Assembly (NCBI GenBank): GCA_025462885.1
Contig: JAOAPN010000005.1
Span: 124,001 to 188,000, forward strand
DNA: 64,000 nt
Direction of reading: 5' to 3'
Source: Acidobacteriaceae bacterium
GTDB taxonomy: Bacteria; Acidobacteriota; Terriglobia; Terriglobales; Acidobacteriaceae
This document shows, in pieces, positions 9,449 to 14,291 of the stretch. A program made the translations under genes and the position numbers. How positions within the stretch are numbered: the first letter of the stretch is position 1; each line of letters starts with the position of its first letter. Below the pieces are notes generated by a model that saw only the letters and a program-made list of their open reading frames with translations, made no database searches and had not been told where the DNA came from.

Positions 9449-9523
9449 GGGCGCATAACTCAGCGGTAGAGTGCCACCTTCACACGGTGGAAGTCGTAGG
9501 TTCGAATCCTGCTGTGCCCACCA
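9449..9523 (+). tRNA. tRNA-Val (anticodon CAC)
   Basis: Acceptor gggcgca/tgtgccc, anticodon stem ccacc/ggtgg with loop ttcacac (anticodon CAC), T arm ggttcgaatcc, encoded CCA. Confidence 0.9.
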
Positions 9524-10778
9524 ATCCTTTCAATAACTTAGGCGGTATGACGGTCGAAGCATTTGCGGCTTTTTGTGGCATTTCGCCAGAAGACTGATTC
9601 TCTCCTCCCTTCATTAGCATTGCGTACACCGATCCGACCATCGCCTGGACGCTTTCCGGCAACTCCTGCATGTACTCGTGAGCCGTCGTGTCCGGCCTAG
9701 AATGCCGCAGGTGAGCCTGGATGTCCTTCACCGATCCCATCTTCTGGGCCTGCGTCGCCATCGTCCGGCGCATCACTTGGAAGTTGAGCTTCGGAATGCC
9801 TAACGACTCGGCCAACGGCTTCAGTACCCGGAAGCGGTAGTTGTCCGCATCCATGAATCCACCGTCTGCATTCTGGAAGATGAATTCGTCGGGCGACGCC
9901 CTGCGATGTTCCGGCTTCGTGCAGAAACTGGTCTTGCAGGAAGCCTTCTTGCATTCCATCTTCCAGAGCAGCAGCTCATCCGCCAGACCATCCGGCAGGT
10001 GAACTTTGGTGAGGCTGCCTGGTGTCTTGCCGAACGGTCGGAGCGTTCTGGGATAGACGGTCTCGGTCAGGGTTAGCGTGTTCTGGTCATCGAAGGATCG
10101 CCACCTGAGCGCAAACAACTCACTCGGGCGAAGGGCCTCCGTCATATCGAGCATGAGGAGCAGACGATCTCGCCTGCCCGCATTGGCCAGGATCAGCCAA
10201 AGCTGTTCCCAGTTCAGCACCTGCTTGTCCTTGGGCCGGAGGTTCTTCGGAATCCGAAGCTTCCGGCTTGGATCTTTTGTCAGGTACTCCTGCTCGATGG
10301 CTTCATCGAAGATCGACTTCAGATACGACCTTGCTTGCTTCACACGATCCTGCGAGTACCGCTCCGCAAGACTGTTCAGGTGCGTCTGCAACATGAACTT
10401 GTCGAACGAATCGAGCGGATACGCTCCGAATCGATTTACGAGGTCGAGCTGAATCTGCGACATCTTCTCTTTCGCCGTTTCAGGTCGCCAATCTCCCTTG
10501 CGAAGCGGAAAGTAGCGATTGAGCACAAACCATGCGAAGGTGACGGAGCTGTCCTTGAGGACCCGGCCTCCGAGGTTCTGACCAGTACGTTTGGTGACTT
10601 CGGCTCGTAGTGCTTCTCGCGCCTGGAGCTTGGTCATTGTCGTTTTGAGAGCGAGCTTGACGCAAACTTTCTTGACTCGCTCCTCGCCTGTATCAGGATC
10701 AAGGACCGTCTGGCGGAAGTAACCAAACCACTGCTTTCCGCGCAGCGAGACCCAGCCTGTCTGGTGCGATTTACCCAT
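9480..10778 (-). CDS. Phage-type tyrosine recombinase/integrase
   Basis: LMLDMTEALRPSELFALRWRSFD...LNFQVMRRTMATQAQKMGSVKDIQAHLRHSRPDTTAHEYMQ; its C-terminus GTAGFEPTTSTV is the antisense translation of the tRNA 3' half. Confidence 0.92.
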   Translation of the reverse strand: MGKSHQTGWVSLRGKQWFGYFRQTVLDPDTGEERVKKVCVKLALKTTMTKLQAREALRAEVTKRTGQNLGGRVLKDSSVTFAWFVLNRYFPLRKGDWRPETAKEKMSQIQLDLVNRFGAYPLDSFDKFMLQTHLNSLAERYSQDRVKQARSYLKSIFDEAIEQEYLTKDPSRKLRIPKNLRPKDKQVLNWEQLWLILANAGRRDRLLLMLDMTEALRPSELFALRWRSFDDQNTLTLTETVYPRTLRPFGKTPGSLTKVHLPDGLADELLLWKMECKKASCKTSFCTKPEHRRASPDEFIFQNADGGFMDADNYRFRVLKPLAESLGIPKLNFQVMRRTMATQAQKMGSVKDIQAHLRHSRPDTTAHEYMQELPESVQAMVGSVYAMLMKGGENQSSGEMPQKAANASTVIPPKLLKGLVGTAGFEPTTSTV

Positions 10779-10832: not shown

Positions 10833-11123
10833 TCAGCCCGTGCGCCTGTGCAGTTTGCTGATTTGCTCGTGTTCGGTGATGAAAAGCTCGATACCACTTG
10901 CGCGGTATCGTAGCGTTCCGTCGCCCATGCGAATGACTGGAAGAAGAGGCTTTTTGCGGGAGGAATGATCCCAGACCCAATCAGTGCTGACGTTTAAGCG
11001 ACGCGCCACGTCTTCTGCTGTGAGGAGTGGCTCGACCAAGGCTGATCGGGCTGGTGGCTTTCGCGGTATCTGTGAGTCTGAGGCAGAGTTAGCCAAATGA
11101 AGATCGCGGTTTTCCATGGACAC
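10833..11123 (-). CDS. Small HTH (excisionase/MerR-like) DNA-binding protein
   Basis: LLTAEDVARRLNVSTDWVWDHSSRKKPLLPVIRMGDGTLRYRASGIELFI resembles an HTH_17 excisionase-type domain; directly upstream of the integrase. Confidence 0.7.
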   Translation of the reverse strand: MSMENRDLHLANSASDSQIPRKPPARSALVEPLLTAEDVARRLNVSTDWVWDHSSRKKPLLPVIRMGDGTLRYRASGIELFITEHEQISKLHRRTG

Positions 11124-11388: not shown

Positions 11389-12348
11389 ATGTCAGACATC
11401 GTTGAGTTTCGCCATCTGGAATATCTGGTTGCGATTGCCGAGCGCAAGAACTTCAGCAAAGCAGCCGAGCATGTACTGCGGTCACAACCTGCCGTCAGCC
11501 ACCAAATCAAAGCTCTTGAGGATGACATTGGATATCCGCTTCTCGTTCGTAAAGGACGCGATGGAGTCTATCCCACGCCTGCGGGAGAGTTCATACTTGT
11601 GTGGGCCAGAATCGTCCTTGCCGGAAAGAAAGAAACATTCCGCATGGCCAGGGCCATCCATGACGGAACGGTTCCACCGCTTCATCTGGGCTTCTCATCT
11701 TTTGTGAATGGATTCCTTCTCGACAACTTTCGTATCGCGTATCAGGGGATGTTCCCAGAGTGTGAGATCCATTTATTTAGCGGGGATACAAAGCATATTC
11801 TGGAGCGTCTTGAGAGAGGCGCGCTCGATTGTGCGCTCCTCCCAATGCCTATCGACAAAGATGTCTGGAGTGCTCGTCAAGTCGCACGCTCACCACTCGT
11901 CATCTGCATGCGCCCAGACGATCCCCTCAGCAATCAAGCCCTAGTAGATATTCGCGAAGCTGCGCCACGCCTCAAAGTGTTCCGTGATCCAGAATTGCAT
12001 CCCGCAGCGCATGCACGCCTTTCGGAGATGTTTTCTGAAGTGGGCGTGCCTCTCCATCTTGCCAGCTTTGCGGCGACACCGGCAGACATCCAACTGATGG
12101 TGAAGCAGGGATACGGACTCGCATTGATCGACCAGCTCTGGCTTCTCGATGCAGGTCTGATTACAAGGCCCTTATCGGGCTTGAACTGGACGGCTGACAC
12201 CGCGTTCGTTACGACGAAGAACCCGAGCCACATGGCCCTGATGTTCATCGAGAAATACCTAGATGAACACGATCTCGGGAGCACGCGTAAACAGCCGCAA
12301 CCGGCGGCGCTCCGCCAGCCTCATCAGCTGGAACTCATCAGTCGATGA
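11389..12348 (+). CDS. LysR family transcriptional regulator
   Basis: FRHLEYLVAIAERKNFSKAAEHVLRSQPAVSHQIKALEDDIGYPLLVRKGR HTH followed by a substrate-binding domain. Confidence 0.92.
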   Translation: MSDIVEFRHLEYLVAIAERKNFSKAAEHVLRSQPAVSHQIKALEDDIGYPLLVRKGRDGVYPTPAGEFILVWARIVLAGKKETFRMARAIHDGTVPPLHLGFSSFVNGFLLDNFRIAYQGMFPECEIHLFSGDTKHILERLERGALDCALLPMPIDKDVWSARQVARSPLVICMRPDDPLSNQALVDIREAAPRLKVFRDPELHPAAHARLSEMFSEVGVPLHLASFAATPADIQLMVKQGYGLALIDQLWLLDAGLITRPLSGLNWTADTAFVTTKNPSHMALMFIEKYLDEHDLGSTRKQPQPAALRQPHQLELISR

Positions 12349-12463: not shown

Positions 12464-12931
12464 ATGTCACTGAACTCGTATCGTCGTAACCGGCTCACGC
12501 GGGGTTTCCTCCAAGTTGGGCGCACGCTTCTGCCTGCGCTCTTCACCCTCGCTTGTGCCGGAGTTGCCCATGCCCAGGGAACGATGGACTTCTCCGGCGC
12601 ACAAACGTTGATGTCAACTTTCAAAACTTTCGCCATGTACGCTGGGGCCGTTATCTGTCTCGGCGGGCTCATTTTTGCGGGCATCCGCATGATGAGTGGG
12701 CGATTTCAAGACGCCATACCAGGGCTCTTCGGTGCGCTGTTTGGCGCTGGAGTTCTCGGCTGGGGAGCCGGATGGATCGGACCTGCAACGCAAGGATGTT
12801 CACCCGCTGGAGGAGGCGCAGGGCTTCCGCGCCTTGCTGGACTTGGAAGAACCCAAGTACAGCATCGAGCAAATTGGAGCGCGTGTCGGGAAATCGCCCG
12901 TCTTCGTCACTTCGAGGTTGAAATTGACTGA
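12464..12931 (+). CDS. VirB2/TrbC-like conjugal pilin with an aberrant C-terminus
   Basis: Signal peptide plus TrbC/VirB2-like TM region (MSTFKTFAMYAGAVICLGGLIFAGIRMMSGRFQDAIPGLFGALFGAGVLGWGAGWIG), then out-of-frame translation of parB sequence. Confidence 0.7.
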   Translation: MSLNSYRRNRLTRGFLQVGRTLLPALFTLACAGVAHAQGTMDFSGAQTLMSTFKTFAMYAGAVICLGGLIFAGIRMMSGRFQDAIPGLFGALFGAGVLGWGAGWIGPATQGCSPAGGGAGLPRLAGLGRTQVQHRANWSACREIARLRHFEVEID

Positions 12932-14069
12932 CCTTGTGCCGTCAGCGGTCGATGCCTTCTATGCCGATGAAATAGGCGTCGGACACGCGCTACTGCTGGC
13001 GAAGTTGCCCGCAGACCAGCAGATAACCGCACTAACAGCGTGCTTCAAAGAGGTATACAGCAGCGGAGCATCGAAGCCAGCGCGTATTCTGCTGCCGGTT
13101 CGCAATCTGCAATTCTGGATCGACAGCAACATCCTGTTGGTTCTGAAAGATGCTCCGTTCAACAAGCGGGACGCACAGCTTGTTCCCGTTGCTGGCAGTT
13201 GCGCCGACTGCGCGAAGCGGACAGGCCATAACAAACTGCTGTTCGGCGATGACCTCGGAAAGCAGGGTGACCGCTGCACCGACCCCGGCTGCTACGCTGC
13301 CAAAGTATCGGCACACGTCGCCAAGTCCATCGCTGCGAAACCCGAGCTGGTGCAGATCAGCACGGCCTATGGCGCCCAGAAAGAAGGTAGCCCGGTATTG
13401 CCACGCAACAAGTACACTGCGATCCGGGATGATAAGCCGAAGTCCACGGACGAAGCGAAGCGTCCCGAGTTCAAAGTGTGCAAGTTCACCACGGAAGCCA
13501 TCATCTCTGAGGGCAGCGATATTGGCACAATCCACAAGGTGTGTGCCAATCCAGCTTGCCCGGTGCATCACCCGAAGAAGCAAACCAGCACGGACGATGC
13601 GACATGGAAAGCCGATCAGGAGAAGCAGCGTCGGGAACAGGCCATCGCCAACGCAACCGGCCTCCGCGTTCTCGCCGCAGTGGGTGCTGCCGTTCCAGTT
13701 CGCCTGCTCAAGCGTGACTTACTCTTCGTGATTGAGAAGCTGGTAAGCGTCATGGATGAGAACCGCGTCGAGACGTTGGCACGGCAGCATGGTATCCGGC
13801 AGAAGCGCGACGATGGAGGTATCAGCAAAACTCTGACAGTCTTCGTTCGTCGTGCGGATGAGGGTACACTCTCCCGGCTGTTGGTGGAGGCAAGCATTCT
13901 GCTTGCTGCCTCGCGTGGTAACCCGGCAACAGCCCTCAAGGATGCAGCTAGCGCCTACAAAGTGGACACCGATGCCATCGCTGCGAAGGTGAAGCAGGAG
14001 TTCGCCGCCAAGGAGAAGGCGAAGAAGACGGCACAACCCGCAGTCAAGGCAGCAAAGAAAGTAGCCTAA
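12780..14069 (+). pseudogene. ParB/RepB/Spo0J-like partition protein, N-terminus missing
   Basis: DLQRKDVHPLEEAQGFRALLDLEEPKYSIEQIGARVGKSPVFVTSRLKLTDL matches the internal ParB HTH; the 84 nt of ORF before it (12696-12779) are the out-of-frame VirB2 gene. Confidence 0.75.
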
Positions 14070-14130
14070 CCATCCATCCACCGAGGGGCGGCAGTCCGCC
14101 GTCCCTCATGCTTCGCTCGCGAAAAATCGC

Positions 14131-14161
14131 GCGGGGAGAAACCGTGCTGGTTTCTCCCCGC
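14131..14161. terminator. Hairpin downstream of the parB-like gene
   Basis: gcggggagaaacc-gtgct-ggtttctccccgc: perfect 13-bp stem, 5-nt loop; no T-run. Confidence 0.5.
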
Positions 14162-14291
14162 CCCCTTATCCCGCCTAACTCCGGCCCCCACTCGCCGGCT
14201 GCGCGCCAGGAGTCAAGTTCCTCCTCCTGGACCTTCCCCTGTATTTCCTTGAAGTAGGCATGATGCTGCCAATTATTGGCCGCTACTGCGC

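Follow-up and report, generated by a model that had tools for sequence, protein, structure and literature searches.

A recurrent joint between a virB2 pilin gene and a truncated parB gene in integrative elements of the Acidobacteriaceae

How did the gene for a VirB2/TrbC-type pilin come to be joined, inside its coding sequence and in another reading frame, to a partition gene that has lost its first domain? The joint lies in a 64,000-nucleotide stretch of an Acidobacteriaceae genome (contig JAOAPN010000005.1, positions 124,001 to 188,000; the window). The original prediction attributed it to a deletion or recombination that took away the rest of a conjugation operon together with the start of parB, leaving a mobilization-deficient remnant.

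The joint and its surroundings

The pilin frame (ATG 12464, stop 12931) matches the TrbC/VirB2 family of Pfam with E = 2.2e-4, under the curated cut-off; its assignment as a VirB2/TrbC pilin combines this weak domain score with the virB3 and virB4 genes that follow its intact homologs, the window copy itself having no virB operon. DNA similarity to two pilin paralogs of the same genome, both on contig C15, ends with base 12780, and ParB similarity, measured against three intact parB genes of the same genome (84, 64 and 60% at the amino acid level), starts directly after it at 12781, in a different reading frame. The ParB frame (GTG 12696 to stop 14069) contains an HTH_ParB domain (E = 3.8e-11) without the ParB_N CTPase domain, the joint falling between the two, and the window parB counts as a truncated relative rather than as a full ParB. 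The two frames overlap from 12696 to 12931, with 151 nt of this overlap lying beyond the joint. In these respects (the switch of homology and frame, the missing ParB_N and an overlap put at about 150 nt) the first description of the locus was accurate. One of the C15 paralogs, at 404 kb, is intact and ends in GAGWIGSLTGQSM; in the other, at 423.7 kb, the identical pilin base is followed by relaxase sequence of the TrwC/TraI type, from its C-terminal helicase part.

Table 1. Features of the element around the joint, in window coordinates.
Feature	Position	Strand	Basis
tRNA-Val(cac), integration site, left end of element	9449..9523	+	ARAGORN; Rfam tRNA
Tyrosine integrase of element, 3' end overlapping the tRNA	9480..10778	-	Pfam Phage_integrase 2.7e-8
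Small protein in excisionase position, no Pfam match	10833..11123	-	position
LysR-type regulator, likewise 5' of virB2 in intact elements	11389..12348	+	Pfam; conserved position
virB2/trbC pilin 5' part, to ...GWGAGWIG; final codons SLTGQSM lost	12464..12780	+	homology
Joint GGATCGG/ACCTGC (break between the halves), identical nucleotide at 14 loci	12780..12781	+	sequence comparison
parB 3' part: HTH_ParB and C-terminal region; frame open from GTG 12696 within the pilin	12781..14069	+	
Conserved non-coding hairpin stretch after parB	14070..14240	+	oriT-like by position only

A search of C13 from position 108000 to 213678 revealed no second tRNA-Val 3' end (attR). The hairpins of the stretch after parB are GGGGAGAAACC..GGTTTCTCCCC and CTCGCCGGCTGCGCG..CCAGGAG..CTCCTGG, and the same region is common to different ParB lineages (the window, L068, L108, L085 and L174). 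Homology between elements ends just past these hairpins.

Intact relatives have the gene order int-xis-LysR-virB2-virB operon-virD4-TrwC relaxase-cargo-ardC-parB, with virB2 and parB about 20–58 kb apart on one strand, as expected if a deletion took away the remainder of the conjugation operon along with the beginning of parB. A 40-kb stretch of genome G031 encodes the pilin, VirB4, VirB9 (CagX), VirB10 (TrbI), TrbL/VirB6, VirB8, a VirB11-type ATPase, VirD4/TraD, a TrwC/MobF relaxase, cargo, ArdC and a full ParB (ParB_N 11–103, HTH_ParB 105–192), with the core genes all on one strand. The integrase and LysR genes stand upstream of virB2 in many intact copies, as they do in the window. Judged by its gene content, the parent is an integrative conjugative element (ICE), of which the window locus probably represents the left and right remains.

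A self-transmissible ICE has an integrase, a type IV secretion system (T4SS), a coupling protein and a relaxase. Of these the window locus retains just the integrase, as an open gene, and the remnant has lost everything for self-transfer. The description "mobilization-deficient" holds for the T4SS, coupling protein and relaxase, which are gone, but not for the integrase, the candidate excisionase and the structured stretch after parB, which remain. The hairpins of that stretch are a possible oriT, and a better candidate for one than virB2, and the remnant may be mobilized by a helper element. Full ParB proteins bind parS and spread from it; by analogy, the ParB half, if made, might bind parS without spreading, because the CTPase domain is absent.

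Recurrence and independent origins

The pilin core is present in 36 of the 62 genomes of the genus. Most of the fetched copies, in which the sequence 3' of the core was read, run on to SLTGQSM and a stop. At 13 loci in the genus the pilin breaks off behind TGGATNGG, and parB takes over at the second A of the Asn codon of an EN/L motif; a 14th such locus, L209, belongs to a second genus of the family. The consensus of these 14 loci is GGATNGG from virB2 followed by AYCTN from parB, with exact matches in nine genomes of the two genera in a pattern search of 398 family genomes, and the boundary is identical when approached from the parB side. Certain genomes hold more than their share of joined loci (2.2 within-genome pairs would be expected, and 10 were counted; p = 1e-4, for 69 loci labelled by hand), and ParB types differ among the joined loci of a single genome. 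We found no description of such a joint in the open-licence literature on Acidobacteria. The chance that it is an assembly artefact seems negligible: sequences are repeated within these genomes, but the identical joint occurs in nine that were assembled separately, one of them a single contig (G249).

Trees were built from the DNA nearest the joint because later recombination could distort a long alignment. In the parB tree (240 nt) as many changes are needed as there are joined rows (14), supported branches forcing at least 10 of them, and a single origin is rejected (AU test, p = 3.7e-90, a value not precise to the digit, the intact row L147 having a very long branch). In the virB2 tree (final 203 nt) 12 joined rows need 12 changes, at least seven of them forced, and a single origin is again rejected (AU p = 7e-5). 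Joined copies are also scattered, with 12 changes, in a tree of the complete parB half, and joined pilins do not group more tightly with one another (0.817) than with intact ones (0.810). The first bases past the joint agree with those of intact relatives from very different ParB lineages. The ParB of L085 is of another subfamily, shared with L174, and is 96% identical to that intact copy from the first post-joint base, and L068 agrees on both sides with a single intact element of G004, 57 kb long, at 94.9% across 1.5 kb on the left side and 91% across 1.3 kb on the right side. The final ~230 pilin nucleotides of L068 differ from an otherwise ~95–100% identical relative, so that later recombination has also been active here. 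Compared with L077, L068 has near-identical upstream DNA and a pilin core (the last ~230 nt) that is strongly diverged, mostly at synonymous positions, a pattern of local gene exchange.

These comparisons indicate that the joint was formed on at least ten separate occasions among related bacteria, at identical nucleotides in both genes. A single ancestral deletion, dispersed as the element spread and shuffled by homologous recombination, would suit the frequent mosaic structure of these elements and the integrase and LysR genes that travel with the joint; it is nevertheless extremely improbable, since the near-joint DNA on both sides rejects a single clade, the joined set is scattered on the near-joint trees and the ParB lineage changes within 10 nt of the joint. 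Conservation of the joint and the overlap in several independent genomes, with coding constraint, had been named at the outset as the outcome that would speak against a remnant. That outcome occurred in part: the joint is indeed shared by nine genomes, but this recurrence does not represent one inherited arrangement. The deletion originally proposed thus stands, but not as a one-off accident, the joint having arisen repeatedly at the same nucleotides.

Other partners and breakpoints

The fixed virB2 base is also found joined to the relaxase gene, at FDHGYAVTSHS (two loci, L003 and L065), to virB4 (L093, where 0.6 kb is deleted) and, at L252, to a second position in parB. The parB base has a different left partner at one locus, L155; at L155:3230 this partner is the start region of an oppositely oriented gene that looks like one of the phospholipase-D type. 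The pilin has a further breakpoint, at SGRFQ, with four joints, all different from one another, which look like ordinary short-homology deletions. The partners seen at this breakpoint (L148, L149, L150, L151 and L260) are relaxase, virD4 and TonB-receptor-like genes. The reciprocal joint, of the parB 5' part to the virB2 3' part, was found neither in a scan of genome contigs (genome_contigs; one chance match) nor in the 62 genus genomes (two chance matches).

How the deletion may be made

We conclude that the pilin-parB joint is probably generated by a recurrent site-specific deletion, in which the end of virB2, the virB operon, virD4, the relaxase gene, cargo, ardC and the ParB N-terminal domain would be excised to the exact nucleotide. 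The virB2 and parB sites have no sequence in common, and we therefore infer a site-specific cutting-and-joining activity; exactness without homology, the fixed left end and the lack of a reciprocal product all argue for enzymatic cutting and joining. The putative enzyme would have its primary recognition site within virB2, would also recognise secondary ones in parB, virB4 and the relaxase gene, and would join primary to secondary site. It may be, as a tentative extension, that this family carries a dedicated DNA-processing site inside the virB2 coding sequence, with a partner site in parB, through which the enzyme repeatedly and precisely sheds the conjugation module to leave a small, still-integrating element.

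Which enzyme might do this? Our preference, a guess and a doubtful one, is for a single-strand transfer of the relaxase/HUH type, which would cut at the secondary site, travel round the excised circle and finish at the virB2 site; the product would be a small circle that retains int and could re-integrate. Counting against it, the virB2 and parB sites have no common 5'-side sequence, which a relaxase should require, and no hairpin conservation was found at either site. Less likely still is the tyrosine recombinase of a Tn554-like transposon, recombining a parB site with a virB2 site and deleting the DNA between. Wherever the ends of a Tn554-like copy (TnpA/TnpB/TnpC) were read, the insertion is in parB at RTYGAR^, 1 nt from the joint, with two ParB subfamilies represented, and these insertions in the parB codon show that the motif is a favoured landing site. 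The joint, however, is at RTYGARA^, such an element is present in only four of the 62 genomes, and none of these four has the pilin-parB joint. The 6-nt core of the element predicts AAYCT past the joint, whereas the first A is missing from every joint; the left cores are parB-like and never virB2-like; and exchange across a 6-nt core should yield varied products, whereas 14 of 14 joints are identical. The elements themselves (L137, L138, L139, L140, L141, L142 and L177–L185) encode two tyrosine recombinases and a DUF6262 protein between TTATCT/AGATAA ends, and their 6-nt core may differ between the two ends. No recombinase gene common to the neighbourhoods of the joined loci was found.

Random deletions retained by selection for the overlapping pilin/truncated-ParB pair, for example as a fragment that blocks the partition of competitors, are very unlikely. 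Both halves are mostly open frames, the joint falls between ParB_N and the HTH domain, and dN/dS is 0.09–0.18 for joined against intact parB and about 0.03 for the pilin, values that combine the time before and after the joint and are not separable into these parts because no two joined copies demonstrably stem from one event. Selection, however, could not fix one nucleotide 14 times when a few nucleotides either side would do equally well, and it is with its relaxase partner that the pilin is in frame, not with parB. A joint made by group II introns was also considered and rejected: introns adjacent to parB lie past its stop, with none at the joint. Those at L217, L221 and L223 are directly downstream of parB, on the opposite strand.

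When ICEs lose their transfer genes, random decay is usually assumed. The deletion described here joins two non-homologous genes and has recurred at an identical base pair, and decay would therefore follow a defined biochemical route, making the origin of satellites from conjugative elements directly testable. Like other defective ICEs or mobilizable remnants formed by deletion, the window element keeps its integrase and attachment side and has lost the T4SS, coupling protein and relaxase; unlike them, it shows deletion ends that are exact to the nucleotide and have recurred in independent events. Members of the Tn554 family target the same parB motif and likewise make no target duplication beyond a 6-nt core, but they break 1 nt away, and the genomes that bear the joint are without such an element. 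Relaxase-catalysed site-specific recombination between oriT and secondary sites is known for TrwC/MobF, the relaxase type that the parent element encodes. By analogy, the events described here would resemble it in having one fixed end, a variable other end and no reciprocal product, and would differ from it in that the site lies inside a coding gene and has no common nic-side sequence.
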